Assembly: GCA_016934295.1 (NCBI GenBank)
Contig: JAFGTD010000300.1
Location: forward strand, 1-35,537
Reading direction: 5' to 3'
Source: Acidobacteriota bacterium
Lineage (GTDB): Bacteria > Acidobacteriota > UBA6911
DNA length: 35,537 nt
A program made the position numbers and the translations under genes. Below the pieces are notes generated by a model. It did not search any database, was not told where the DNA came from, and was given only the letters and a program-made list of their open reading frames with translations. Positions 2,671 through 32,277 of this stretch are shown here, piece by piece (the first letter of the stretch is position 1; each line of letters starts with the position of its first letter).

Positions 2671-3840
2671 TCAGGCAACCAACATCCCGATCGGGTCGTG
2701 AACGGCGCTGATCGGGATAACGGTGACCCTTTCATGCAGCCGATAGATTTCGCTTCCGGGATAAACGACCCAGAGATGATCGAGTCGGAGGTCCTGCAAC
2801 GCCACGTGCATGGAGCGTGTCAGGGCCGGTGCATCCGCGAATTTGAACTCGAATCCGAACCGCTTGCCGGATGCAAAAATCAGCAGGTCGAGCTCTGCGC
2901 CTCCGTGGGTTGCCCAGTAGTATGCGTCTCTCGTATTGACAGTGCTCAGCACATGCTCGAGCGCAAAGCCTTCCCAGGAGGCGCCCAGCTTTGGGTGACC
3001 GAGGATGGCCTGCAGGGAGGCGAGTTGGAGCAGAGCGTGCAGGATTCCACTGTCGCGAATGTAGATCTTTGGAGCCTTGATCTGCCGTTTCTTGAGATTC
3101 TCAAACCACGGTGGGAGCACGCGGACCATGTACGCGCCCTTGAGGATGTCCAGGTAGCGGCGTGCGGTGTTCTCGGAAGCACCGAGCGAACGGGCGAACT
3201 CCGCGGCGTTCCAGACTTGCCCGTGGTAGTGCGCTACCATGGTCCAGAAGCGGCGGAGGGTCTCGGACGGAATGGTAATACCCAATTGGGGAATATCCCG
3301 CTCTAGAAATGTCCGAACGAATCCCTGGCGCCAATCACCGCTTGCGGCATCGTCCGGCGCAAGAAAAGACCTTGGAAATCCTCCACGGCTCCACAGGCGA
3401 TCGCGTTCGTCTTCGCCGACTTCGCCCAGTGTGAAGCCGGACAGATCCACAAAGCCGACCCGTCCAGCCAGTGATTCCAAGGTTCCTTTCACCAACTCGG
3501 GCGAGGCGCTGCCGAGGACGAGAAACCGAGCCGCGTTGTCTGTCCGGTCGACAAGGACTCTCAGAATCTCGTAAAGCTCCGGCTGACGTTGGATTTCGTC
3601 GATGATGACGAGCCCCTCGAGGCGCTCTAACGCAGCCATGGGGGCTGTGAGTTGTTGGCGTCCCACCGGACTTTCGAGATCGAACGTTGTGTTTACCTGG
3701 TGCTCGGCCAGCATACGGGCCAGCGTTGTCTTCCCGCATTGGCGGGGGCCCAGGAGAGCGGCAACGGGATGAATCCGAAACACACTTCTGATTTGTTCAA
3801 GATAGCCGGGCCGATTGATCATGTTGAAAGCATAAAACAT
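2671..3840 (-). CDS. ATP-binding protein, AAA_14 + DUF4143
   Basis: Walker A GPRQCGKTT, Walker B LVIIDEIQRQPEL, LVLGSASPEL, C-terminal HGGAELDLLIFASGKRFGFEFKF. ATG at 3840 with GAGG upstream is preferred to the TTG at 3852. Confidence 0.9.
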   Translation of the reverse strand: MFYAFNMINRPGYLEQIRSVFRIHPVAALLGPRQCGKTTLARMLAEHQVNTTFDLESPVGRQQLTAPMAALERLEGLVIIDEIQRQPELYEILRVLVDRTDNAARFLVLGSASPELVKGTLESLAGRVGFVDLSGFTLGEVGEDERDRLWSRGGFPRSFLAPDDAASGDWRQGFVRTFLERDIPQLGITIPSETLRRFWTMVAHYHGQVWNAAEFARSLGASENTARRYLDILKGAYMVRVLPPWFENLKKRQIKAPKIYIRDSGILHALLQLASLQAILGHPKLGASWEGFALEHVLSTVNTRDAYYWATHGGAELDLLIFASGKRFGFEFKFADAPALTRSMHVALQDLRLDHLWVVYPGSEIYRLHERVTVIPISAVHDPIGMLVA

Positions 3841-4129
3841 GAAAATCCTCAAGTCAATTGAGGAAATACCTTAATCTAACATTCGAAACAGGTAGAACTA
3901 GTGCTTGTCCCTGCTAATAAATCCATCTGAAGGAAAAAAGACTGGATCAGACAAGCAGTTTCAGATGGTTGGAAGCCCTGGATTTGCTGAATGTTGACCA
4001 CCACGATCCAAGGGAAAGATTGCCTCGAAGCGGAGGTAAACGCCCGCTCATACAAATATTCAGAGGGTATAAGCAAAATGCACAACTGGGGACAGAAAGT
4101 GCGTGATCAGGCGGCTCATCGCTCGTAGC

Positions 4130-4297
4130 ATTGGCTGGCTTGAGGTCTCGGTGAATGACTCCCTTTTCGTGCGCCGCCTCCAGTCCTTCCTCTATCTGGC
4201 GGCATAAGGCCAGAGCGTCTTCAAGAGGCGACGCCCCTTTACTCAGTCTTGCCTGAAGTGTTTCGCCCTCAACATACTCCAGCACCAGGAATACGAC
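4130..4297 (-). pseudogene. Fragment of a Hanks-type Ser/Thr protein kinase
   Basis: VVFLVLEYVEGETLQARLSKGASPLEDALALCRQIEEGLEAAHEKGVIHRDLKPAN is a kinase hinge-to-catalytic-loop segment. No P-loop upstream and no DFG/APE downstream. Confidence 0.7.
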
Positions 4298-4427
4298 CGT
4301 TCCGCACTTTTTCTCACCCCCAGTTTTCTCCAACGTTTGCCGATTGTTTGCCGATTCCGTTGAGTGAAAGAGGCCCAAGCAGATGGTGACCGGTCAGATA
4401 TTAATCACAGACAATAGGAAAGGATTA

Positions 4428-7391
4428 TTATTCGGAAATACTTTTAAGCAACTCATTTGCGATATGGGCGCTTTCGATGCGCATGACGCTTTCTTCGGCA
4501 TTGCCGTAACTTAGGTAATTGATGCTGCCGTACCAGACAATTTTCTGATCCATGATTGCGAATTTCTGGTGGATATTGGGTTTCAGTACTACGTGCATTT
4601 CGTTCTTTTTGAACAAGTCCAGGCTTTCACGCAGGGCGCCTTGATCCGCCGGTTTGTATTCATCTAAGGGGCGGGTAACGACCGCTACACGGACACTATT
4701 GGACATTGCGGTTTTCAGCTGTTGCATCATCTGTATGGTGCGCCGTTTTCTGACAAAAGGGCTGACGATGAGGATTTCCTTCTTTGCGGCAGCGATATCG
4801 TTGATGAAAACCGGGAGAAAGCTCTCCCTATTATAAATGATATCCATTGGTACGGATGAAATGTCATCGCCTATGGCCTTGTAACCCATCGCGGCATACC
4901 CGTTCAGCCGTCTCTGGTACATTCTTTCCAGCATGCCCACCTGGACATCCACATAATCGTAAATGCGAACTTCCTTTTTAGTCCGGTACAGGCGATGAAG
5001 GCGCCCGGCATATTGCTGCAGTGTGCCCTTCCACGATATCGGCATGGTGAGAAACAGCGTGTCGAGCCGCGGTTCGTCAAAACCTTCCCCGATGAAATGG
5101 CCGGTTGCCACCAATATCATCTTCCTTTCTTCGGGGATTTCAGAGATGCGCTGGAAGACTTCCCGGGTTGTTTTCGGTCCCATTCCTCCCGTCAGTGTGA
5201 TGACGTCCGAATCGGTAACCACCTCCCGCAATTTATCGGCAAGATTTTCGACGTGGGCGGTACGCAAAGAGAGAACGATGCAGTTTCTGCCAAGTTCGTA
5301 ATTTGCAAGGACATCGTCCACGATCTGCTGGTTCCGGGTTTCACTGTCAATAATTTCAGCGTACAAGTCCTGAATGAATGCTTCCTTTTCTTCGGTCTCG
5401 TACGGGATCCTCAAAGACGTAAAGCGCGGAACGACAAAATGGTCGAAAGGCCTTTGCTCGGCCTGTTTTTGTGGATTGTCCCGGTATCGGATCGGGCCGC
5501 AATGCATAAAAAAAATAGGATGATGTCCGTCCTTGCGCGTCGGTGTGGCGGTCAAGCCGTAAATGTATTTTGCCCGGGCGGATTTCAGAATGCTTTCATA
5601 AGTAAAGGCGGATGCATGATGGCATTCATCGGCGATAATCATCCCATAGTCATGGATGCATTCTTTGACCTCGCCTTTCCTGCTCAATGACTGCATGATC
5701 GCAATGTCCACTATACCGTTCAGGGTGTTCCGTCCTGAGCCTAGCTGGCCGACTTGGCTGATTTTCTTTTTGCTTCCGCGTTTCTTGACGACACCGTCGA
5801 CCTGATCCGGCTGCGTTTCATTAATAATCAGGAACTCTGAAATCTTCTTCTTCCATTGCGAAAGCAGACTGACCCTGTCGACCAGGATGAGCGTGTTTAC
5901 TTTCCTTTCGGCGATCAGCTTGAGAGCCACAACTGTTTTCCCGAAAGCGGTTGTTCCTGAAAGAATGCCGGTTTCGTGTCTCAGCAAATTTTCGAGGGCC
6001 AGGGATTGCTCCTCTCTCAGCTCCCCCTTGAATTCCACATCGATGCTTCTGCCGGCCCAGGTTTTATCCGTGAATCGATAATGGACTCCAATCTCCCCAA
6101 GTTCCTTCGATAGATCCTCTCTGCACTCTCTCGGCAGACATATATAGTTTTCTGTTTCATCCGTGCATGAGATTACTCTGGGATGTCCATAAGTCGGCAG
6201 GCGCATGGCCTGCTGCCTGAAAAACATCGGATTCTTGAAAGACGCGAGTCTCTTAATACGATTGAGTCCTCTTTGAGAGATCCCGGCCTTTGGGATAAAG
6301 AGCATATTTGCGCGAACTATTTCGATCCGGTCTGGGAAGTCGTTTTTCGAAAGCGCGATTCTGCGGATCTCCCAGGGCTTTTCGGCTCCCTCTTCATCCT
6401 CTTCATGGTCGATTTTAAGTTCCCCCAGTTCGTGACCGGGGCAGAGCTTCGATATCAGGTGTTCGACGCTTTCTTCGGAAAGCTTCCGGATGGTGGACAG
6501 AAAAGCCCATTGGTCGGGATATGAGTGGAAATTTTCATCCACGAATTCGCTGTTGTTGTTCTCCCGTGCTGATTTCTGCAGAGGAAGGGCAATCAGATTC
6601 CCGAATCCGCCTTTGGGGAGGGTGTCCTGGCTGGGAAAAAGGCGATCGTAGGATTTGAATCGGATCTCGTGCCTTCTGTTCATGGAATATGTCAGTAGAG
6701 CGGTTCCGAGTTTTCTTGCCAGTGCTGCCGATATTCGATTTTCAAAGAAAAACCAGACGTGGCCGCCGTTGCCGGATCGGGATCGCTCCACGGTATAAGG
6801 AATTGCATATTCCTCACAAATCTTTCTCAATGTGTGGATGTCTTTTTGCCAGTCCGCTTCGTCAAAGTCGATTGCTAAAAAACAGCAACTTTCATCCGGA
6901 AAAAGTGGATAAATACCGGCAACAATGTTTCCTCTGAGATGGTTTTCGATGACCGCCTCATCCAGGATTGCATAGGATTTATGGGCGCACCTGGAACAGG
7001 GAGATTTCGGTTTGCCACATACTCCAACAATCCATTCGTTCAGGCATACGGGTGAATATCCGGATGTTCCTTTCTTTCTGTTCTCCCACCTCTTGGCGTA
7101 CACATCGTCCCTGCCTTTAAAAAGAGTCATGAACAACTTGATTTTTTCAGACGAATCGGTTGTGTTGGAAATGATCGAATCGGAAATGTCGTTGGTTGTT
7201 TCCGCATCATGGTTGCTTTTCTCCGGGTTAGACGCCGGTAATGAACTTTGTGAAATCTCAAGATTCCCAAGTTCAAGCTTCTCTTTTAACTGCCTGTTTT
7301 CATTCTTTAAGCGGTCCAGTTCACGCAACAGCCGCCTGTTCTCTTCAAGCAGCGTTTCCCGGCTCTCCAGATTCTCCGGAATATTTGTCAT
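4428..7391 (-). CDS. TOTE-type AEP primase domain + SF2 helicase + C-terminal PLD-type phosphodiesterase domain
   Basis: 987 aa. N-terminal coiled coil; AEP-like CFLAIDFDEADW and VERSRSGNGGHVWFFF, plus DRLFPSQDTLPKGGFGNLIALPLQ; helicase GTTAFGKT, ADECHH, GLTATPTR, QYAGRLHR; C-terminal HQKFAIMDQKIVWYGSINYLSYG (HxK(x)4D...GS). Confidence 0.92.
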   Translation of the reverse strand: MTNIPENLESRETLLEENRRLLRELDRLKNENRQLKEKLELGNLEISQSSLPASNPEKSNHDAETTNDISDSIISNTTDSSEKIKLFMTLFKGRDDVYAKRWENRKKGTSGYSPVCLNEWIVGVCGKPKSPCSRCAHKSYAILDEAVIENHLRGNIVAGIYPLFPDESCCFLAIDFDEADWQKDIHTLRKICEEYAIPYTVERSRSGNGGHVWFFFENRISAALARKLGTALLTYSMNRRHEIRFKSYDRLFPSQDTLPKGGFGNLIALPLQKSARENNNSEFVDENFHSYPDQWAFLSTIRKLSEESVEHLISKLCPGHELGELKIDHEEDEEGAEKPWEIRRIALSKNDFPDRIEIVRANMLFIPKAGISQRGLNRIKRLASFKNPMFFRQQAMRLPTYGHPRVISCTDETENYICLPRECREDLSKELGEIGVHYRFTDKTWAGRSIDVEFKGELREEQSLALENLLRHETGILSGTTAFGKTVVALKLIAERKVNTLILVDRVSLLSQWKKKISEFLIINETQPDQVDGVVKKRGSKKKISQVGQLGSGRNTLNGIVDIAIMQSLSRKGEVKECIHDYGMIIADECHHASAFTYESILKSARAKYIYGLTATPTRKDGHHPIFFMHCGPIRYRDNPQKQAEQRPFDHFVVPRFTSLRIPYETEEKEAFIQDLYAEIIDSETRNQQIVDDVLANYELGRNCIVLSLRTAHVENLADKLREVVTDSDVITLTGGMGPKTTREVFQRISEIPEERKMILVATGHFIGEGFDEPRLDTLFLTMPISWKGTLQQYAGRLHRLYRTKKEVRIYDYVDVQVGMLERMYQRRLNGYAAMGYKAIGDDISSVPMDIIYNRESFLPVFINDIAAAKKEILIVSPFVRKRRTIQMMQQLKTAMSNSVRVAVVTRPLDEYKPADQGALRESLDLFKKNEMHVVLKPNIHQKFAIMDQKIVWYGSINYLSYGNAEESVMRIESAHIANELLKSISE

Positions 7392-7478: not shown

Positions 7479-7653
7479 CTTAATACAGGTATTATGTTTC
7501 TAACGGTAATGATATCTTTTATTTCAATTTATTCAAAATTTGACCGTGGCCAATAACGATATTTCAGCTGAGCGGACGTATACCGAGTGATTTTCTGATT
7601 TGTGGAAACATTGATGAATCCGGCTCTTACAGGACACTGGCCGGGTTGTTGTT

Positions 7654-8931
7654 TCAGGTCCGCCGGTTGGAGAACGCTCCCAGTAAAAGAAAATCCGGGA
7701 TGGCCCAGATCTTTTCGGACAGCTGATCGAATTTGTGTCCCGGGTAGACAATATATGCTGCAGGAGTTTCGGAATCGTGGGCTTCAAGCCATGATCGCAA
7801 TCCCGATAAATCCCGTTTCCCCAGCCTTTTTTTGTATTTTATTTCGATCGGCACGTAATTCCCATGAAGTCTAAACACCAGGTCCACTTCCGAGCCGTCC
7901 TGGGTATGCCAGGTGAAGAAGTCGGGATAGATCGATTCATAATGGGCGCATTTCATTAATTCCGACACAATCCATGACTCATAGAGCGGTCCTATCGCTC
8001 CGGTGTTTTTTTGCAGCGTCAGGCTGCCGACATTGCCGTAACCGGTATTTATAAGGATAGGATCGATAACGTGGATCTTCGGTGACTTGACAAGTCGTTT
8101 GATCGGATTCAGGTAGAACTGAGGCAGTTCAAAACAAATCATCATTGCAGAAAAGTATTCAATATAATTTTTCACCGTTACCGAGCTGATGCCGCTTGGC
8201 GTCGCAATATCACTGTAGTTAAGCAGATTGGAAGTTCGCAGACACAGCTGGTAAAAAACCTTCTGAAAGGAGTGCTGTTTGCTTACACTGAAGAACTCAA
8301 CTGCCATCGGCAGAATGTAGGTATTGAAGTACTGGTTCGACCACTCCCTTAAAAACCCGGCATCCGACTTTTCCTGAATTTCAGGGAATCCTCCGAAGGT
8401 GAGTATGTTTTCCCGGCTTCGTTCGATCTCAATCCCGCCGATACCGGGCGTTTTATCAAATCGGATGGAATCGGGTTCGGTGAGATTTGCAACCAGGGAT
8501 TGAATGCCGCCGATGATTTCACTCCATGAGAGTGGATAGAGCTGGATTAAACCTACCCGCCCTGCCAAAGATTCTTTTATTCGCCTCATCAGAAGATAGT
8601 TCCCGCTGCTGGAAAGCAGGATTTTTGTCGGCACGGGATCTTCTTCATCTACAATGACTTTTACCGCTGAAAAAATCCCCGGGGATTTGGCGGCTTCGTC
8701 AATAACCAGAAGTCTGCCGCGTCTGCGATTCAGGCGCAGCCAGCCCAACGGATCCGCATTGGCCTCCTCGAGCACTTTTGGATCATCCAGTGTCCGATAT
8801 ACGCCGTCCCGGTCCTTACAGATTCGGGTGAGAAGATAGCTTTTCCCGACCTGCCGGGCGCCCGTCAGGGCGACACAACGAAAATCTTCCAGTGTTTTTA
8901 ATAATTTCTTTTCAATCCGGCGTTGAAACAT
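7654..8931 (-). CDS. ATP-binding protein, AAA_14 + DUF4143
   Basis: 425 aa. GARQVGKSYLL, LLVIDEAAKSPGIFS, LLSSSGNYLLMRRIKESLAGRVGLIQLYPLSW, C-terminal DGSEVDLVFRLHGNYVPIEIKYKK. Confidence 0.9.
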   Translation of the reverse strand: MFQRRIEKKLLKTLEDFRCVALTGARQVGKSYLLTRICKDRDGVYRTLDDPKVLEEANADPLGWLRLNRRRGRLLVIDEAAKSPGIFSAVKVIVDEEDPVPTKILLSSSGNYLLMRRIKESLAGRVGLIQLYPLSWSEIIGGIQSLVANLTEPDSIRFDKTPGIGGIEIERSRENILTFGGFPEIQEKSDAGFLREWSNQYFNTYILPMAVEFFSVSKQHSFQKVFYQLCLRTSNLLNYSDIATPSGISSVTVKNYIEYFSAMMICFELPQFYLNPIKRLVKSPKIHVIDPILINTGYGNVGSLTLQKNTGAIGPLYESWIVSELMKCAHYESIYPDFFTWHTQDGSEVDLVFRLHGNYVPIEIKYKKRLGKRDLSGLRSWLEAHDSETPAAYIVYPGHKFDQLSEKIWAIPDFLLLGAFSNRRT

Positions 8932-9490
8932 TTTGGAATCATAAATCAGTATACTTTAAAATTCAAGCTTGAATATTAAAATACGCCGATCTTAAACCTG
9001 AGGCCATGAACTCGATAGAATAGTCTGACAGGATACTTGTTTTCCTCTGTTTGAAGTTTGACCCGAATCAGACGTCTGCAGATCCAGGGCGCAATCCAGA
9101 ACCACCGTAACCTTTGCGAGCAGGCATTCAAGTGACTGACGCCGGCCGGGATCGTCCATAAACATGCTCCCCTGCGTGCTGCGGGATTCTATTTTCACGG
9201 CAGGCATTTCTCGCGAAAACCATTCCGCCACTTGATCCATGAAATCCTTGGCCCCTACGAATTAGCCCGAAGAGCGAAGCCTGATCTCGGGCATGCGATT
9301 CTCCAGTAGAGGTCGGTTACATGCGAAAGACTGTCTGTTAATGCTTTGTGAAACGGATGTTTATTATAAAGAGGATGAAGCGGATGGGGGAAGGAAAATC
9401 CCGGCATGGGATTGAGGGTGTTACACTTTTCGACCGCCACGTCTGGCATCTATCAACCGCCACTAACACTTTTTGAATCCAATGCAGCAC

Positions 9491-9679
9491 GCTCGGAACT
9501 CCAGCCTGCTTTATGGCTTCAAGAAACTGCGGTACCATACCGGGCAATCCGGCGTCTACCAGCACCGCTTCTTTCTGATCCCAAAACAGCGTCGGGTACA
9601 GGCTACCGGGACCATTCATCATTACAGCGGACAATTCAAGCATTTCAATTCCAGTTGCGACTTGCATAAGATTCTCCAT
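9491..9679 (-). pseudogene. N-terminal remnant of an MBL-fold metallo-hydrolase
   Basis: MQVATGIEMLELSAVMMNGPGSLYPTLFWDQKEAVLVDAGLPGMVPQFLEAIKQAGVPS resembles the start of MBL-fold enzymes. The HxHxDH region never appears. Confidence 0.5.
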
Positions 9680-9992: not shown

Positions 9993-10020
9993 TTGACATC
10001 AACTAAGATGATGCTATGAT
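9993..10020 (+). promoter_or_regulatory. Sigma70-like promoter (TTGACA-16-TATGAT) for the antitoxin-toxin pair
   Basis: ttgaca (9993-9998), 16-nt spacer, tatgat (10015-10020). Confidence 0.55.
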
Positions 10021-10026
10021 TCAAAC

Positions 10027-10272
10027 ATGCGAACAACTCTTTCCATCGATAATGATGTTTTGGAACGCGCCAGAACTGTTGCGGCAAAATTGAAAACACC
10101 GTTTAAAACGGTTGTCAATGAGGCGCTTCGTGTGGGTTTAAAATATGTCGAAAAACCCGCAAAGAGCCTTGCTTACAAGACCGAACCGCACCGAATGGGC
10201 CTTCGGGCGGGCCGCAGTTTGGATAACATCCAGGAACTGCTCTCCCAGATTGAAGGGGAGACTTCCCGATGA
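10027..10272 (+). CDS. VapB-like antitoxin (DUF2191-like)
   Basis: 81-aa MRTTLSIDNDVLERARTVAAKLKTPFKTVVNEALRVGL; overlaps the PIN-domain ORF by ATGA. Confidence 0.8.
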   Translation: MRTTLSIDNDVLERARTVAAKLKTPFKTVVNEALRVGLKYVEKPAKSLAYKTEPHRMGLRAGRSLDNIQELLSQIEGETSR

Positions 10273-10697
10273 TTCTGATCGACACGAACATTCTTCTTTA
10301 CGCGGAAGATTCGCTTCACCCGCGCAACGAACAGGTCCGCAACTGGTGGGATGACCGGCTTTCCGGAACGGATGCGGTTTGCCTGTGCTGGACGGTTTTA
10401 TCTGCCTTTATCCGTATTGCCACCAATCCCCGAGTTTTTGAATGTCCGCTATCCATGGAACAGGCATTGGCTCGTGTTCAGAGCTGGCTGGACCAACCTT
10501 GTACGCGAATCGTCCGTCCCACCGAACAACATTGGTCGATTTTCCAACAAATGCTTAACGACGGGCAGGCTGCCGCCAATCTGGTGGCAGACGCGCACCT
10601 GGCGGCACTCGCAATCGAACACGGCTGCGAACTGATTTCCACCGATTCCGATTTTGCCCGCTTCCCCAAACTGAAGTGGCGCAACCCATTTCATTAA
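10269..10697 (+). CDS. PIN-domain toxin, VapC-like
   Basis: MILIDTNILLYAED...NLVADAHLAALAIEHGCELISTDSDFARFPKLKWRNP, with the acidic PIN motifs. Confidence 0.88.
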   Translation: MILIDTNILLYAEDSLHPRNEQVRNWWDDRLSGTDAVCLCWTVLSAFIRIATNPRVFECPLSMEQALARVQSWLDQPCTRIVRPTEQHWSIFQQMLNDGQAAANLVADAHLAALAIEHGCELISTDSDFARFPKLKWRNPFH

Positions 10698-10846
10698 TCC
10701 GGTAATAAATTCGATGGATATGCCGGATCCTTCAATAGCGGAACGGAGAATCCAGCGTTTCCGGCGAGTGGCCCATACAGGCGCTCATAAAGATTGGGAG
10801 ACCCTTCCGGCGATTCCAGACAGGCCGCAAGACTGTTATCAGCAGG

Positions 10847-10867
10847 GAGCGAACCTTGTGTTCGCTC
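10847..10867. repeat. REP-like hairpin copy A (GAGCGAACCTTGTGTTCGCTC)
   Basis: 8-bp stem GAGCGAAC/GTTCGCTC; same core as 16179-16201. Confidence 0.6.
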
Positions 10868-10903: not shown

Positions 10904-10925
10904 GGGCGAATACAAGGTTCGCCCC
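10904..10925. repeat. REP-like hairpin copy B, inverted relative to copy A
   Basis: gggcgaatacaaggttcgcccc is the near reverse complement of the 16179-16201 element. Confidence 0.6.
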
Positions 10926-11910: not shown

Positions 11911-12912
11911 ATGCGAATCATTGCGGTTGCGAATCAAAAGGGAGGATGTGGAAAAACCACTACAGCTATCAATCTTTCGTCTTGTCTGGCATTGAAAGGG
12001 AAAAAGGTACTGCTGGTCGACTTTGATCCCCAGTCCCACGCTACGATGGGACTCAACATAGAATGTGACCCGAAAAAAAACATATATCATGTGCTTGCTC
12101 CAACGCAATCAGATGCAGTAGGGCTCGATGATGTCATCGTTCCGGTCAAGGAGAACTTTGACATTGCGCCATCTGACACGCTGCTGTGCGCCATGGAGCA
12201 GGAGTTGGCGCTTGTGGATGGCAGGGAAAAGAGGCTTCTGGAAGCGATTGAGTGTCTGGAGAAATCCTACGATTTCATTATCATCGATTGTCCGCCCAGT
12301 ATCGGACACCTGAGCTTCAATGCGCTTCGTGCCAGTTCGGAGGCGATCATCCCCATCGACATGAGCCTCTTTTCACTTCGGGGAATTGCCAAGCTGACGG
12401 ATATGATGGTCATGATCGAAAACGCATCCGGCCATGTAATTACGCCCCGGGCACTTGTAACCATGTTCGACGCAAGGACGCGCTATTCTCAGGAAGTGCT
12501 GGAGAGAGTTCGGGAGAAATTTGAAGACAAGGTGTTCAATACGGTCATCCGCTACAATATTCGGCTCAGAGAGACCGTGGATCACGGATTGCCTGTTGGA
12601 GATTACGACAAGCACGCAATCGGTCAAAAGGATTATGAGGCACTGTCCGAAGAGGTTATGGGCGGTTTGCAGAAAGACACGGCTGTTGAAATCAAGGCTT
12701 CTTCCGGAGCGGAGGAGGTCTTGCGGACTACCAGGGAGTACTTCGATACCATGAAGCCGGTTCCCATGTCCGACATTGACTTGGAATCAGAGACAGAAGA
12801 TGTAGAGAGCTTCCCCTATCCAGCCCAGTCGAATTATTCGGCCATGATAAATACAATTGCCTGCGGTACCCTGGCCAACCAGTCGGATGAGAGCGAAGAG
12901 CCGGATAATTAG
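11911..12912 (+). CDS. ParA/Soj-family ATPase
   Basis: MRIIAVANQKGGCGKTTTAINLSSCLA...VLLVDFDPQSHATMGL...FIIIDCPPSIGHLSFNAL; purine-rich RBS. Confidence 0.93.
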   Translation: MRIIAVANQKGGCGKTTTAINLSSCLALKGKKVLLVDFDPQSHATMGLNIECDPKKNIYHVLAPTQSDAVGLDDVIVPVKENFDIAPSDTLLCAMEQELALVDGREKRLLEAIECLEKSYDFIIIDCPPSIGHLSFNALRASSEAIIPIDMSLFSLRGIAKLTDMMVMIENASGHVITPRALVTMFDARTRYSQEVLERVREKFEDKVFNTVIRYNIRLRETVDHGLPVGDYDKHAIGQKDYEALSEEVMGGLQKDTAVEIKASSGAEEVLRTTREYFDTMKPVPMSDIDLESETEDVESFPYPAQSNYSAMINTIACGTLANQSDESEEPDN

Positions 12913-16178: not shown

Positions 16179-16201
16179 GGGGCGAACCTTGTGTTCGCCC
16201 C
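16179..16201. repeat. REP-like hairpin copy C (GGGGCGAACCTTGTGTTCGCCCC)
   Basis: Perfect 9-bp stem GGGGCGAAC/GTTCGCCCC with a CTTGT loop; related to 10847 and 10904. Confidence 0.65.
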
Positions 16202-18802: not shown

Positions 18803-19366
18803 TTATCCTTCTTTTATTTTAAAACCGATCTGATTTTGAGGTTTAGCTGGTGTTTCAATCATCTTTTTTACCATGGAATATACGGTGGCAAGTTGCTGCC
18901 CATATTTTTTCTGCTGGTACTCACGCTCCTCAATTTTAATCGCCAGGGCCTTATGTGTTGAGAGCATTTCTCGAAGTTTTATAAAAGCGCGGATTATAAG
19001 AATGTTCATCTGTATTGCATGTTGGCTGTTAAGAACCGATGACAGCATAGCGACACCATGTTCGGTAAAAGCATATGGGAGATAACGCCGGCCACCACGA
19101 CCGCTGTTGTTTGAGATCACAATTTGTGATCTCAAACAATCCTGCTCCTGCTTCGAGAGCTGGAACATAAAATCCTCAGGAAACCGGTTGGAATTGCGTT
19201 TAACAGCCTGGAGAAGCACGCGTGTTTCAACCCTATACAGTGCAGCTAAATCCTCATCGAGCATCACCTTTTGACCGCGAATCAGGAAAATGCGTCTTTC
19301 AATCATTTCCACAGGGATTGGACGTAGTCTGGTCACCCCTGAATTTGAGGGCTTTGATTTGACCAT
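18803..19366 (-). CDS. ORF6N domain protein
   Basis: IERRIFLIRGQKVMLDEDLAALYRVETRVLLQAVKRNSNRFPEDFMFQLSKQE...GGRRYLPYAFTEHGVAMLSSVLNS. Confidence 0.9.
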   Translation of the reverse strand: MVKSKPSNSGVTRLRPIPVEMIERRIFLIRGQKVMLDEDLAALYRVETRVLLQAVKRNSNRFPEDFMFQLSKQEQDCLRSQIVISNNSGRGGRRYLPYAFTEHGVAMLSSVLNSQHAIQMNILIIRAFIKLREMLSTHKALAIKIEEREYQQKKYGQQLATVYSMVKKMIETPAKPQNQIGFKIKEG

Positions 19367-25680: not shown

Positions 25681-28600
25681 CTAACGGGATTTTGATTTTT
25701 TCGATGTGAAAAAATCGTACAGTATGGGCAGCACCAGAAGCGTAAGGACGCCGGAACTGAGGATGCCGCCGAGCATGGTTATGCCGGCGCCGTTTCTCAT
25801 CTCTGCTCCGATCCCCCGGCCAAAGGCGAGAGGGAGCATTCCAAGAACCGCGGCGATCGTGATCATGACAACAGGGCGGAAACGTTCGCAGGCCGCTTCA
25901 ATCATCGCTTTGTGGCGCGGGACTCCTTCGCGGACGTGCACATTGAATTGATCCACGATCAGGATCGCATTATTGACCACGATGCCGATCATCATGACGA
26001 TCGACATGATTTCAAAAATGCCGAGGCTGTTGCCTGTCCAGAATAATCCCAAGAAGGTTCCGATCAGGGCCAGGGGTAAAGTAACGAGAATAAGGGCAGG
26101 CTGTTTGAAAGATTCCAGGATGGCCGCCAGCATAAGAACCACAAGCACAATAGAGATAATGCCTGCCTCCGCAAGGCCCTCCAATCCTTCGGCCATGACT
26201 TCGTAGCGTCCTCCGAACTGGTAATCGTACTGCGGGGGGAAATCGCCTTCGGCATCTATGGTTTCGCTGATCCGATCGACCGCGGTGCCGAGGGGCAATC
26301 CGGGACCCAGGTTTGCGTATAATTTCGAGACGCGCCGCTTGTCCTTGCGGGTCAGGAGCACGGGCGAGCGTCCCTCTTCGACAGATGCCAGGGTATTCAA
26401 AAGAACGGGCCGTCCGGGTTCTCCGGGGAGAAGAAAAGCATCAACCTGGTCCTTGCCGGTTTCTTCCTGCAATTTGACGACGATGTCGTAATTGCGCGCA
26501 TCTTTCTTGAAGGTGCCCGCGGTTACTCCCTCGAGATTGGCCCTCAAGTTCATGCCGACTTCTATTGCCGGAATTTTTCTGTCGGACAGGACCTCGCGTC
26601 GCGGCAGAATCCGAAGTTCCGGTTTTCCGGTTCGCACGGTAGTGTCGATATCCCGGACGCCTTCGAAGGGCGCGACCAGGTCGCCTACCTTCAGTGCAAG
26701 ACCGTCGAGCGTGTCATATTCCTCGCCGATGATTTCCAGTTCCACGTCGCTGCTCTGCCCGCCGATTATAGGGGGGATGTTTACCGTCGTTATGGCCCCG
26801 GGATAATCCGCGAAGCGCGATCGGACTTCGCTTATGATCGACTCCATTGTAAGATTGCGTTCATCCCTTTCGGAAAATTTCAGCAGCAGCTGGGCGAGGT
26901 GGACTCCCTCGGAAGTCTGTCCGACCGTACCTTCCACCTTGCCGATGGTGGTCAACGTGTGCTTCAGTTCCGGCACATCGCGCAACCTGCTTTCGGCTTC
27001 TTTGACGCGCTGCGTAGTCTTGGCCAGGTCATATTCGGTCGGAAACTCCAGCTTCACGAAGAGTTTTCCCTGGTCCGAATCGGTAACCATGCTTGTTCCC
27101 AGTCTGCCGGCCACGGAAAGGGAAAGCAGAAAAAGGCCGGCAACGATTAATAGAACGACAACGGCTGCCAGTCGATGCCGTTCGTTGAACTCGAGCAGCG
27201 CCCTGTACCATCGGATCAAGCCGTTGAAACCCAGGTTCCAGCCTCTTTCCATGCGAAGCAGCAGCGACCGGCTGTTTTTTTTCGGCGGCACCAGCAGGAT
27301 GGAGCAGAGAAGGGGCGTCAGGGTAAAGGAGACGAACAGCGACACCGCCGTCATGATCAGCATGGTTATAGCCAGCGCTTTGATAAAAAGCCCGATCATC
27401 GAATGCATCATGACAAGGGGAAACAGTACGACCACATTGGTGCCGACACTTGCCAGCACGGCAACCGTTGCTTCCGATGTTCCCAGGCGCGCCGCATCCC
27501 GGGCATTGCCCGTCCGGGAGAAGCGCTTTATGATCGCTTCGAGGACCACAATGGAGTTCGTGACCAGAATGCCGACGGACAGGCCGATGGCAATCATCGA
27601 AGAGACATTCAGCGTCAGGTTCGACAAATCCATGAAGAACAGGCCGATGATGATTGTCAACGGCATTGTAATGCCCACTACGAGCAAAGATCGTATATTG
27701 TACAGGAAAAGAAAAAGCACCAATGAGGTCAGGAGAATCCCCTGGATGACATTGATCCAGGCGCTGTTGTTCAATGCTTCGATAAAACCGCCGTCGTCCG
27801 CCACCCATACCAGCTCCAGGCCTCCGGGAAGGAATCTCTCCAGGTCCGTCATTGCCGCTCTTACGGCATGGACGACCTGAACGGCGTTCGCGTCGGATTT
27901 TTTAACAACCCTTATGGCTACACAAGGCCGGCCGGCAATGGAAGCCTGCTGCCGCATCTCTTCGGTGGCCATAACGACGGTGCCGATATCCTTGATCCGG
28001 GAGCGTTGCCCGTCGATATTGGCTATTTCAAGCTCCCCGATGTCTTCAATGTCTTCATAGTCGGCATCGAATTTAACGGAGTACTCCGTGCCGCCGTCCC
28101 GCAGATTCCCGGATGGAATTGTTCGTATGCCCTGTTGAATCGTTCGTACCACATCCATGCTGGACAGCCCGCGCGCCGCCAGTTTCTGACGGTCCAGCCT
28201 TATATGAACTTCTCTTTGGGCGCCGCCGACCAGTTGAACGTCCGCAACGCCCTGGATGGTCGTGATTCGATCCCGGAGGGTGTTGTCGGCGTAGTCATAG
28301 ATTTCGTCGATCGGAAGATCCCCGGCGAGGGCCAGGTTCACGATAGGCACCGCGTTGATGTCGAATTTCTGGATTATGGGATCTTCAACATCCTCCGGAA
28401 AATCCGCCTGGATCAGGTCGAGTTTTTCCCGGACATCGGTGGCGGCAATGTCGACGTCGACATCCAGGTAGAATTCCAGAAGGGTCTGGCACACATTCTC
28501 CATGGACGAGGATGTGACATGCTTCAGCCCGTCGACGGTAACCACGGCATCTTCGATGCGTTTGGCAATGTCGGTTTCGATCTCTTCGGGCGTCGCTCCG

Positions 28601-28755
28601 GGATACGCGGTGATTACGGTAATGTACGGCACATCGATTTTGGGCATTAGCTCCAGCCCGAGCTTTCGTGCGGAATTCAGCCCCAGGAGGGTGAGCATTA
28701 TGATGCAGGCACTCATTGCAATGGGTCTTTTTACCGAAGCTTCGGAAAGAAACAT
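25681..28755 (-). CDS. RND efflux permease, AcrB/HAE family
   Basis: 1024 aa; FLSEASVKRPIAMSACIIMLTLLGL..., PKIDVPYITVITAYPGATPEEIE, GIVVNNAILIVDQFN...RFRPVVMITIAAVLGMLPLAFG. Start overlaps the MFP stop (TAATG). Confidence 0.95.
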   Translation of the reverse strand: MFLSEASVKRPIAMSACIIMLTLLGLNSARKLGLELMPKIDVPYITVITAYPGATPEEIETDIAKRIEDAVVTVDGLKHVTSSSMENVCQTLLEFYLDVDVDIAATDVREKLDLIQADFPEDVEDPIIQKFDINAVPIVNLALAGDLPIDEIYDYADNTLRDRITTIQGVADVQLVGGAQREVHIRLDRQKLAARGLSSMDVVRTIQQGIRTIPSGNLRDGGTEYSVKFDADYEDIEDIGELEIANIDGQRSRIKDIGTVVMATEEMRQQASIAGRPCVAIRVVKKSDANAVQVVHAVRAAMTDLERFLPGGLELVWVADDGGFIEALNNSAWINVIQGILLTSLVLFLFLYNIRSLLVVGITMPLTIIIGLFFMDLSNLTLNVSSMIAIGLSVGILVTNSIVVLEAIIKRFSRTGNARDAARLGTSEATVAVLASVGTNVVVLFPLVMMHSMIGLFIKALAITMLIMTAVSLFVSFTLTPLLCSILLVPPKKNSRSLLLRMERGWNLGFNGLIRWYRALLEFNERHRLAAVVVLLIVAGLFLLSLSVAGRLGTSMVTDSDQGKLFVKLEFPTEYDLAKTTQRVKEAESRLRDVPELKHTLTTIGKVEGTVGQTSEGVHLAQLLLKFSERDERNLTMESIISEVRSRFADYPGAITTVNIPPIIGGQSSDVELEIIGEEYDTLDGLALKVGDLVAPFEGVRDIDTTVRTGKPELRILPRREVLSDRKIPAIEVGMNLRANLEGVTAGTFKKDARNYDIVVKLQEETGKDQVDAFLLPGEPGRPVLLNTLASVEEGRSPVLLTRKDKRRVSKLYANLGPGLPLGTAVDRISETIDAEGDFPPQYDYQFGGRYEVMAEGLEGLAEAGIISIVLVVLMLAAILESFKQPALILVTLPLALIGTFLGLFWTGNSLGIFEIMSIVMMIGIVVNNAILIVDQFNVHVREGVPRHKAMIEAACERFRPVVMITIAAVLGMLPLAFGRGIGAEMRNGAGITMLGGILSSGVLTLLVLPILYDFFTSKKSKSR

Positions 28756-29954
28756 TATCGATCCTTCCTGATGACCGCAATCCTGTCACCGTCCTGCAGT
28801 AAGTCCTTACCTGCCGTTACTACCCGGGAATCGATCCTGAGATCGCCCTCGAGTATTTCAATCCATCCGTTTGTTTCCAGGCCGGTCCGAACCGGAATCA
28901 TGCGTACCGTATCGCCGTCGCTGATAAAAATCTTGAGCCCGTCCGCCCGGACTACAATGGATTCTCTGGGCACACCCAGACCTTCCCGGCTCTCGAGTGT
29001 CACCTCCAACCTGGCGATCCTTCCCGGCACAATCCCCTCCGGAGGCCGCCTTATGTCGCACCGTATTTCAAAGGTTCTCAGATCCGAGCTGACTGTCGAG
29101 CTTTTATAGGAAATCGGTTGATTGCGCAGCTGCTTATCTCCAACGTCTATATGGACCTTTGTCTTGCCGGGTAGAACCCGGGCGTAGGCTTCCTCCGGCA
29201 GGTAAGCCGATATCTCCACGATCGACAAATCCACTATGCGCAGGACCGGAGTCCCCGCTGCCGCCATCTCGCCGGGTTCCATCATCCTTTCCGTTACCGC
29301 GCCGCTGATCGGCGCCTGAACCAGGGAATCCCTCAAGTCCTTCTCCGCAATTGCCAGATTCGCTCTTGCCTGTTCCTGTCTCTTCTGGGCGAGTTCGACG
29401 CTGATCTCCGCGTGCTTTTGGGCGGCCGATACCTGCAGGAATTGCGATTCTATTATTTCAAAAGCGTTTTTGGTTACGGCCTTGTCCTGTTCATAGAGTC
29501 GTTTATACCGTTCGTAGTCGAGTTTGACCTTATTGTAGTCGGCCTGGACCTGTTCCAGATTGGCCTGCCGTTCCAGGACCGTATATTCAGCGACTGCAAG
29601 ATCCTTTCTGGATGCTTCCACCGCTTTTCCGAGCTTCAGAGAGTCCGTCTGAAAAAGGTCCGTGTCTCCGGCGATTACGGTATCTCCTTCATCAACAAAT
29701 ATGCGATCCAGCGTGCCGGGGATGCGGGCTGAAACGTAGGCGCTGTTCTTCGCCTGTACGTTTCCCGAAGGGGAAAGGACGGACGCGAAAGTCATACGAC
29801 GGGCGGACTCCAGATAAACGGGCTTGCTTTCGGAAGATTCGCTTGTCGCCTCCGGCCCGGGTTCGTTCCCTTTATCGTTGCGGCATCCCGCAATGCAGGC
29901 GCATAAAATCAAAATAACTGTAATGTGTGCGCAATAGATTCCCTGCTTGAACAT
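28755..29954 (-). CDS. RND efflux periplasmic adaptor lipoprotein (MFP)
   Basis: Lipobox IAGC; SARIPGTLDRIFVDEGDTVIAGDTDLFQTD; coiled coil; LVQAPISGAVTERMMEPGEMAAAGTPVLRIVDLS. Confidence 0.93.
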   Translation of the reverse strand: MFKQGIYCAHITVILILCACIAGCRNDKGNEPGPEATSESSESKPVYLESARRMTFASVLSPSGNVQAKNSAYVSARIPGTLDRIFVDEGDTVIAGDTDLFQTDSLKLGKAVEASRKDLAVAEYTVLERQANLEQVQADYNKVKLDYERYKRLYEQDKAVTKNAFEIIESQFLQVSAAQKHAEISVELAQKRQEQARANLAIAEKDLRDSLVQAPISGAVTERMMEPGEMAAAGTPVLRIVDLSIVEISAYLPEEAYARVLPGKTKVHIDVGDKQLRNQPISYKSSTVSSDLRTFEIRCDIRRPPEGIVPGRIARLEVTLESREGLGVPRESIVVRADGLKIFISDGDTVRMIPVRTGLETNGWIEILEGDLRIDSRVVTAGKDLLQDGDRIAVIRKDR

Positions 29955-29956
29955 AA

Positions 29957-31366
29957 TTAGGGTTCCTTCTTGGTTCGGCCCAGTACATCGGCCAGTGTGG
30001 CCAGGGCAACCTGTTGCTGATATTTGACCACGGTAACCATGAAGCGGGCCTGATCTCTGTTTGTAACGTCTTCCAGTATCTCCGAAAGCTGCAGCAGTCC
30101 TTCATTCCACTGCGCTTGGGCCTCTCGAAAGCTCTCCTCGGCGGTCGCCGCATTCATAGTCGCGACCTGTAATTGATCGGATGCCTGTTCCGCCCTGTTG
30201 CGGGCGCTGAGCACCTCGAGCATGATCATCATGCAGGTCTGTTCCCGTTCGATGAAAGCCGCTTTTTCCCGTTCGCGGGCCGCCCGGTATCCGAATACAT
30301 TCTGAAAGCCGTCGAAGACGGTCATGATTGCCGAAACGCCGTATGACCACACGTTGGAATATCTTAAAAATGAATCACTGCCGTGGGAGAAGCTGCCGAT
30401 CCCGAAAATTTGCGGCAGGAAGGCCGCGATCGCGCTTCGGATTTCCTGCTTTCGGATTTCCAGCGTCCGATCGTCGATGTGAAGTTCCAGCCGGTTTATG
30501 AGCGCTTCCAGAACGTCCTCCGAAAGTTCCCGCTGTACTGCAGGTGCAAAGGGCATTTCCAGCTTCAGTTTAATGTCTGCAAAAGGAGACAGGCCCATCA
30601 CTTCCAGAAGGTTCGCCCTGTATTCCATTGAAATCCTATGGATGTTTTTTAACGAGAGCCGGCTTTCCAGCAGGAGCGTTTCCACTTCCCGGCGCTGAGA
30701 GGGCAAGACAAGTCCCTCCCGTTCAAAAGCTTTCGTTTCCCTCAGCAGCGCTTCTGCGCTGATCGTTGCTGTTTTTAGATAGGCTTCGGCTTCTTCCAGC
30801 GACAGGCAGGCAAAATACAGGCTGGTTACGTATAAAGAAATCTGCTGGCGGGTTCTTTGAAGGACCAGGTTGCTGATGTCTTCGCCTTTTTGGCGCATGT
30901 CGTACAGGTACCAGGCCTGGGGAAGGAATATCGGCTGCTGAAGCTCAATCGCCAGATTGGCCACTTCCTGGTCGGACATTTGAACCAGGCTCCCCCCTGC
31001 CTGTCGCAGTTGCGGCTTGTCCGTGGCCGAAAAGGAGAATCGAAGCCCGATATTGGGCAGGAAATTGCCGAAGGCGCTTTTTCGATCCAGCGAAGCCAGT
31101 CGTTTTTGAATCTCGAGGATTTGAAGATCCAGGTTGTTGGCCAAAGCTATATCGATGCATTCACCGAGGGTGATCGGCGTATCGGGCAGTGTATGGATCG
31201 TCTTTTCTGTTAGGCGGCCCGGAAAAGCACCGGCATGCTCCACCCTGGATATTCTGTGAGTGCATCCCGCTGTGAAAATTAGAGTGCCCAAAACCAGGAG
31301 CGCATTTATTAGAAGCAGCCGGTCAGCGCGATTCCTGGAGACAAATTTCTTGATAAATTTATTCAT
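29957..31366 (-). CDS. TolC-family outer-membrane lipoprotein
   Basis: Lipobox TAGC; TLGECIDIALANNLDLQILE; C-terminal AQWNEGLLQLSEILEDVTNRDQARFMVTVVKYQQQVALATLADVLG. Confidence 0.9.
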   Translation of the reverse strand: MNKFIKKFVSRNRADRLLLINALLVLGTLIFTAGCTHRISRVEHAGAFPGRLTEKTIHTLPDTPITLGECIDIALANNLDLQILEIQKRLASLDRKSAFGNFLPNIGLRFSFSATDKPQLRQAGGSLVQMSDQEVANLAIELQQPIFLPQAWYLYDMRQKGEDISNLVLQRTRQQISLYVTSLYFACLSLEEAEAYLKTATISAEALLRETKAFEREGLVLPSQRREVETLLLESRLSLKNIHRISMEYRANLLEVMGLSPFADIKLKLEMPFAPAVQRELSEDVLEALINRLELHIDDRTLEIRKQEIRSAIAAFLPQIFGIGSFSHGSDSFLRYSNVWSYGVSAIMTVFDGFQNVFGYRAAREREKAAFIEREQTCMMIMLEVLSARNRAEQASDQLQVATMNAATAEESFREAQAQWNEGLLQLSEILEDVTNRDQARFMVTVVKYQQQVALATLADVLGRTKKEP

Positions 31367-32016
31367 TCTGCGTCCATTGCGTGATCGAGATTGCTGACAT
31401 CCGCCAGGGCACCTCTTGTAAATAGGTTGAAAATGATTTCAGCCTTCAAGCCTTCCGGGTACTGCTCCGGATATTCCATGGAATGAAACAGGAAAGCCTG
31501 GCAAATACCCTGAAGCGTCAATGCCAGGTGGAAGGGATCGAGTTTGCGGAATATTTTCTTCTGAACACCCTCTTCCATCACGGAAGCGATCCTTTCATCG
31601 ATCTCATTCATTATCTTTCTTGCGTCATGACGGAGTCTGGACCTCAAGTTGTGGCTTTCTCCGCGGGTTTCCGCGAAAAAAATCCTGATAAAGGGAATGT
31701 GGTCTCCGAAAAATCGTATCGCGTTGTCAATAAATTCCCCGATTCTTTGCAGTACAGGTAAATCTTTATCCAGAGTCAGGAATTGAATCTCTGAAAATTC
31801 TTTAAGTTTTTCCAGAATCAGGGAGTGGTAAAGATCTTCCTTGTTTTTGAAAAAATTGTAGAGAGTGCCTATGGAGAATTCGGCCTTTTCGGCAATCTGG
31901 TTCATGGTGACATTGTGGTACCCGTTTGCCGTGAAGAGCTCCTGTGCTGCTTCCAGTATTTCTCTGTAATTACTGGCTTTCAGCCTTTCGCGACGGGAAA
32001 GCTTTTTCTCATTCAT
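31363..32016 (-). CDS. TetR-family regulator
   Basis: SNYREILEAAQELFTANGYHNVTMNQIAEKAEFSIGTLYNFFKNKEDLYHSLI. ATG 32016 is 8 nt from GGAGG; ATGA overlap with the TolC-like gene. Confidence 0.92.
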   Translation of the reverse strand: MNEKKLSRRERLKASNYREILEAAQELFTANGYHNVTMNQIAEKAEFSIGTLYNFFKNKEDLYHSLILEKLKEFSEIQFLTLDKDLPVLQRIGEFIDNAIRFFGDHIPFIRIFFAETRGESHNLRSRLRHDARKIMNEIDERIASVMEEGVQKKIFRKLDPFHLALTLQGICQAFLFHSMEYPEQYPEGLKAEIIFNLFTRGALADVSNLDHAMDAE

Positions 32017-32277
32017 CGTCATTACCTCCGTCAACGCTCTAATAAAGGCTTATCGACAATTACATGAACCAATCGTCATAAAATAAAACAATATTATATA
32101 AAATGAATATAATGTCAATATTTAATTGGGTATCCCGTCAACCGGAGGGGACGCATCCGTCCAACTTATTGTAGATGCAGGAAGTGTTCGTAAAAGCGGG
32201 GAATTGATTTCCCGACGGATCGCGGACGGACATCCCGCAGATACTGTAGTCGTTTCCCTCAGCGATGTCAGGCAGGC

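Follow-up and report, generated by a model that had tools for sequence, protein, structure and literature searches.

An AEP primase-polymerase, SF2 helicase and PLD nuclease in one polypeptide: a candidate defence effector encoded in an Acidobacteriota genome

Proteins that join an AEP primase-polymerase domain to an SF2 helicase are already known. The nearest characterised relative of the protein described here is CAPP, the CRISPR-associated Prim-Pol. In the CAPP of Marinitoga (MpCAPP), mutation of D177/D179 abolished both polymerase and primase activity, and AEP-helicase is the most prevalent architecture among the CAPP homologues that have no CRISPR link (Nat Commun 2021, PMC8211822). In Thermus, the AEP primase-polymerase Ppol of the element ICETh2 makes the cells take up less foreign DNA, and the element can replicate without it (PMC7693054). 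A third group, the TOTE conflict systems, takes its name from TPR, OB, TBP and Effector (Aravind et al. 2022, as cited in PMC12458937).

Here we describe a protein in which the AEP-SF2 core is followed by a PLD nuclease. What is new is that the cutting domain (PLD or DUF559) is exchangeable, and that the genes of relatives frequently stand behind toxin-type genes. None of the papers searched describes an AEP-SF2-PLD fusion, an exchange of PLD for DUF559 or a pattern of upstream cassettes, an earlier mention of the architecture in AEP surveys being possible. We read the fusion protein, with a probability of roughly 0.55, as a single-chain, horizontally spread defence effector against foreign DNA. 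Its domains are assigned by sequence and structure prediction, and we infer the function in defence.

A four-domain protein with conserved catalytic residues

The window, i.e. the whole stretch of DNA that was analysed, is an entire 35.5-kb contig from a 5.45-Mb draft genome. The ORF of the fusion protein starts with ATG and has no internal stop. Its parts, and the neighbouring genes that bear on its function, are as follows.

4428..7391, minus strand: AEP primase-polymerase/SF2 helicase/PLD nuclease fusion, 987 aa (full-length orthologues; tree)
7278..7370, minus strand: N-terminal coiled-coil helix, aa 8-38 (predicted helix)
6459..7148, minus strand: AEP primase-polymerase domain, aa 82-311, with DxD D175/D177 and H211 (Pfam PF22548 AEP-TOTE, E 1.1e-101; PDB 7nqd)
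6987..7046, minus strand: four-cysteine module within the AEP domain, C116, C125, C132 and C135 (kept in 40-41 of 41 sequences)
4989..6023, minus strand: XPB/UvsW-like SF2 helicase core, aa 457-801 (Pfam ResIII and Helicase_C; 6p4f; Foldseek)
4440..4805, minus strand: Nuc-type PLD nuclease domain, aa 863-984 (Pfam PLDc_2, E 1.2e-11; Foldseek Nuc)
4518..4571, minus strand: single HxKxxxxD...GSxN catalytic motif, aa 941-958 (invariant in 30 aligned PLD-type sequences)
7654..8931, minus strand: AAA_14-DUF4143 ATPase, same strand, 262 bp upstream (Pfam; PADLOC PDC-S01)
2671..3852, minus strand: second AAA_14-DUF4143 ATPase, downstream (Pfam; PADLOC PDC-S01)
11911-12912: ParA-like ATPase (Pfam)
883-2349: PRiA4_ORF3 plasmid-type protein (Pfam)

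The initial annotation had read this single ORF as a coiled coil, an AEP domain with a Cys-rich part, an SF2 helicase and an HxKxxxxD/GS motif, and both Pfam and motif conservation agree. The families it had named (AEP-TOTE, ResIII/Helicase_C and PLDc_2) were all matched in Pfam, where the scores of all four domains of the fusion protein exceeded the curated cut-offs. A primase fold was also recovered. Full-length orthologues exist at 82% and about 65-70% identity, which excludes a fusion through chance or mis-assembly. The predicted full-length structure was of moderate confidence (mean pLDDT 72, pTM 0.41), and its Foldseek matches were XPB, UvsW and the Prim-Pol domain of MpCAPP (PDB 7nqd).

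The latter structure matches the AEP domain by both sequence and fold (TMt 0.76-0.79), and the alignment pairs D175/D177 of the window protein with D177/D179 of MpCAPP. Among 41 aligned relatives, D175 and H211 are invariant and D177 is kept in 40. Of the four module cysteines, C116, C125 and C135 never vary and C132 hardly does. From this pattern, the module probably binds zinc; it falls outside the region that aligns with MpCAPP. In the helicase, Pfam matched ResIII at aa 457-619 (E 3.2e-22) and Helicase_C at aa 690-801 (E 6.3e-6), and the nearest solved structure by sequence was XPBII (6p4f, E 6e-20). SF2 motifs I, II, III and VI are present across two RecA-like domains, and GKT (484-486), DECHH (588-592) and QxxGRxxR (793-800) are invariant in the same 41 relatives.

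In Nuc-type PLD enzymes, two HKD motifs together form a single active site. The fusion protein has one HKD motif per chain, with H941, K943, D948, G955, S956 and N958 invariant across 30 aligned PLD-type sequences, and it must therefore probably pair; our models are of monomers. When the C-terminal 165 aa were modelled alone (pTM 0.71), the best Foldseek match was Salmonella Nuc (1byr, E 2e-8), followed by Zucchini and Helicobacter NucT, all of the PLD family. PADLOC also matched the Mokosh proteins MkoB/MkoC. These matches were confined to the PLD region (aa 839-985) and did not extend to the whole protein, and Mokosh was rejected.

Compared with the nearest relative (L021, 82% identical), dN/dS was 0.135 in the AEP domain, 0.13 and 0.10 in the two helicase halves and 0.19 in the PLD domain. 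Judging by these ratios (0.10-0.19), purifying selection acts on each enzymatic domain. The N-terminal coil (aa 1-80) is weakly conserved in sequence, with a dN/dS of 0.58; from its predicted helix, it might be a dimerisation element.

Relatives, horizontal spread and the exchangeable nuclease

The AEP-TOTE domain was present in 25 of 100 relatives. Full-length AEP-SF2-PLD orthologues (55-82% identity) came mostly from Desulfobacterota-type genomes, with a few members of the PLD clade from Bacteroidota, Firmicutes, Omnitrophota, Acidobacteria and other lineages. Among 396 genomes of the window's own phylum, few encode a PLD-type protein, and most matches end near aa 838, short of the PLD domain. 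In a tree of 67 proteins, every PLD-type sequence fell in one fully supported clade, where the window protein and L021 are nested within mainly Desulfobacterota sequences. This nesting suggests that the PLD-type gene was acquired by horizontal transfer. The sister clade (7 rows), also fully supported, has a different C-terminus, which is a DUF559 nuclease according to Pfam in the three members scanned. Plasmid and betaproteobacterial relatives have no C-terminal nuclease, and two other genomes of the window's genus (G004 and G006) carry the nuclease-less form instead. The nuclease slot is exchangeable on a constant core: one clade has filled it with PLD and another with DUF559, and elsewhere it is empty, as expected if selection favours the destruction of DNA.

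Plasmid relatives were found in 247 plasmid records of PLSDB, many of them conjugative, and some plasmid or mobile relatives adjoin integrase or conjugation genes. No relative was found in the viral contigs searched, and the best phage matches were limited to the helicase part. Thus, a viral origin of the gene was rejected. In nine relatives (L023, L036, L048, L058, L063, L065, L068, L082 and L083), the AEP-helicase(-PLD) gene is broken into at least two ORFs, which suggests either recurrent decay, as often in defence genes, or assembly errors.

There are two explanations other than defence which intact enzymes under purifying selection would fit equally. The first is that the protein served a mobile element as its primase-helicase for replication or maintenance, priming and unwinding the DNA of that element, and was later captured by the chromosome; the nuclease would process ends or remove competitors. 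The plasmid relatives, those beside integrases or conjugation genes, and the ParA-like ATPase and PRiA4_ORF3 protein near the window gene all point this way. However, Pfam recognised no integrase, relaxase or replication initiator in the window, relatives are missing from the viral contigs searched, and the best phage matches cover the helicase part only. A nuclease fusion would be unexpected for a replication enzyme, and the Thermus Ppol can be dispensed with for replication (PMC7693054). We consider this explanation unlikely, although slightly less so than the other alternatives to defence.

The second is a host enzyme of DNA repair or replication restart on the damaged chromosome, combining PrimPol repriming, an XPB/UvsW-type motor and a nuclease that trims structures. 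The helicase is indeed closest to XPB and UvsW, the purifying selection is strong, and archaeal XPB partners the nuclease Bax1, to go by the titles of PDB entries. Against this, the gene is patchy and horizontally moved, with different forms in one genus, its relatives are plasmid-borne, its neighbours are of defence type, and the reading frame is split in several relatives. Repair seems somewhat less probable still than replication of an element.

Genes around and upstream of the fusion gene

According to the initial annotation, the surrounding minus-strand genes are defence-like. This holds in part: the two AAA_14-DUF4143 ATPases both matched the phage-defence candidate PDC-S01 in PADLOC, and a pair of VapB-like antitoxin and PIN toxin genes (10027-10697, plus strand) lies nearby; from about 13 kb onwards, the contig encodes mostly metabolism and efflux. 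A near-consensus promoter (TTGACA-16-TATGAT, 9993-10020) lies ahead of the VapB-like/PIN pair. Short, near-identical intergenic elements (GGGGCGAACCTTGTGTTCGCCC and variants) occur in both orientations at 10846-10865, 10904-10925 and 16179-16200, and resemble a small family of interspersed repeats. A 143-aa ORF at 3947-4378 (minus strand) matched no more than positions 72-129 of a protein-kinase family of 263 positions (E 2.6e-11) and is probably what is left of a kinase gene after decay. Another short ORF at 9338-9679 (minus strand) had no Pfam match; its start resembles the N-terminus of a larger enzyme, and it may be a gene fragment beside the island. Further along, an ORF6N-domain gene (phage-type regulator; 18803-19366, minus strand) stands alone amid metabolic genes, and an RND efflux operon (25681-32034, minus strand) encodes an AcrB-type pump, a membrane-fusion protein, an outer-membrane channel and a TetR regulator.

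The upstream ATPase is a possible partner of the fusion protein, although the link is weak here. The 262-bp gap between the two genes holds a promoter-like site. In the nearest relative (L021/G009, of the same genus as the window), the AEP gene is syntenic, as are backbone pieces on both sides, but several kb separate the AEP gene from the DUF4143 homologue. DNA identity with this relative (85% across 2987 bp) is confined to the gene. Considering the gap and the location of the homologue in L021, an operon with the window DUF4143 gene was rejected, and none is claimed at this locus.

Immediately upstream of the fusion gene, PLD-clade relatives often carry AbiEi/AbiEii, Fic or AAA_14-DUF4143, at a distance of -31 to 74 bp. 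Same-strand partners were found upstream at 16 of 37 loci (the window counted) and downstream at one of 37; the Fisher test gave P = 4e-5, which is optimistic because PLD-clade rows share ancestry and are not independent. Outside the PLD clade, the difference was not significant (5/40 upstream vs 1/39 downstream). The class of the partner changed at least five times on the tree among the 16 loci. For example, L022 and L023 encode nearly identical proteins, yet AbiE is upstream of the former and Fic upstream of the latter. At L024, L032 and L034, AbiEi alone is directly upstream. Among the top 25 families listed for the PLD-clade loci, genes within 2.5 kb repeatedly matched the AbiE, PDC-S01 and SoFic models, and genes more than 4.5 kb away gave mostly single, scattered matches. 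At L100, an AbiEi-like gene (7572-8174, plus strand) is directly downstream of the AEP-helicase gene, not upstream. At L041/L042 (about 6-8 kb), which represent one lineage, the same-strand row before the gene ends in a radical-SAM and a 6-pyruvoyl-tetrahydropterin-synthase-like gene. A link of these 7-deazaguanine-type (preQ0-type) genes to base modification is possible.

This arrangement raises the question of whether the fusion protein is the effector of an operon of toxin-antitoxin type, a sub-case of the defence reading in which the upstream AbiE, Fic or AAA_14-DUF4143 protein senses or restrains and the fusion protein executes. The upstream bias with its short gaps, and the repeated changes of partner class, including that between L022 and L023, speak for such an operon. 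The wide gap with its promoter-like site in the window and the distant DUF4143 gene of the nearest relative speak against it; moreover, about half of the PLD-clade loci have no partner, and islands accumulate toxin-antitoxin genes anyway. We regard this sub-case as improbable, to about the same degree as DNA repair. The word 'self-contained' in the initial annotation is uncertain: many PLD-clade relatives stand behind AbiE, Fic or AAA_14-DUF4143 genes, but in the window the link is weak.

Defence as the favoured function and comparison with known systems

The reading of the fusion protein as a defence effector is favoured because the catalytic residues are kept, purifying selection acts on the gene, its spread is patchy, its relatives occur on plasmids and its neighbours are of defence type. 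The anti-MGE effector of the initial annotation stays the most likely interpretation. The nearest experimental support, by analogy, would be the phenotype of the Thermus Ppol. In the papers searched, we found no activity or protection assay and no tested function for the exact AEP-SF2-PLD architecture.

A possible course of events can be proposed for such an effector. The AEP/zinc part would bind exposed ssDNA of invading or replicating elements, on which it may add short primers, or which it may mark. The SF2 motor would then use ATP to translocate along the DNA or remodel it, and the PLD domain would cut after the motor step. Two chains would have to pair for the PLD chemistry, perhaps via the N-terminal coiled coil. 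In many relatives, the upstream toxin/antitoxin-type gene may be coupled to expression or activity.

If the protein does act in defence, a single chain would couple priming to translocation along DNA and its cleavage. It would offer a direct route to why immune systems use primases, a question that is open for CAPPs and for the AEP proteins of mobile elements. The swaps of the nuclease domain and of the upstream toxin-type gene would be natural experiments that separate the sensing part from the killing part. More tentatively, and with the odds rather against it, these proteins might represent a class of DNA-targeting defence modules that has so far gone undescribed, with a conserved AEP and SF2 core, an exchangeable C-terminal nuclease (PLD, DUF559 or none) and, in the PLD clade, a place behind interchangeable cassettes of toxin/antitoxin type (AbiE, Fic or AAA_14-DUF4143) that may act as switch or guard. 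In that case, the same executor would work with a variety of sensors.

It is very improbable that the protein is a CRISPR-adaptation factor, i.e. a CAPP-helicase that makes or processes prespacers: its AEP domain is closest to MpCAPP in sequence and fold, the PADLOC model of CAS-associated PrimPol matches it (E 5e-96) and there is a single cas1 match in the genome, but that match is on another contig, neither a repeat array nor a cas gene was recognised on the 35.5-kb contig (whose ends bound the search), the NCBIfam model PrimPol_Msp gave 108.9 bits, far under its cut-off of 200, and the prevalent AEP-helicase homologues have no CRISPR link (PMC8211822). An association with CRISPR was thus rejected.

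The initial annotation also called the protein TOTE-type. This is right for the Pfam name of its AEP domain, which TOTE systems share, but our searches recovered no TPR, OB or TBP. TBP (PF00352) was detected neither in this genome (94% complete) nor in 99 relatives (a set of 100 genomes), the archaeal controls being positive, and Pfam matched no TPR or OB/cold-shock domain among the main ORFs of the window. The domain alone is insufficient for membership of a TOTE system, which we rejected, and the label should not be taken to mean it.

Compared with CAPP_A, the AEP-helicase type of CAPP (PMC8211822), the window protein has a homologous AEP domain with the same DxD and a helicase after it. It differs in its extra cysteine module and C-terminal PLD nuclease, in lacking the N-terminal TPR region, and in being encoded on a contig without recognised cas genes. 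The Thermus Ppol is likewise an AEP primase-polymerase, placed on a mobile element and with a defence-like phenotype. Unlike in the window fusion, the helicase of ICETh2 is a separate gene of another type and there is no nuclease, which makes the analogy loose. Nuc and NucT share the PLD fold and the single HKD motif with the window protein, but they are free-standing enzymes, whereas the PLD domain here is fused to a motor. The plasmid proteins annotated as 'DEAD/DEAH box helicase' in PLSDB have the AEP-SF2 core in common with the window protein (about 44% identity over aa 82-837), although they carry no C-terminal nuclease. Finally, the YprA-type helicases of Druantia III and ARMADA belong to another helicase family, and an AEP domain is not mentioned for them in PMC12458937, but they are SF2 enzymes whose C-terminal PLD or Vsr nuclease is exchangeable, like that on the core of the window protein.
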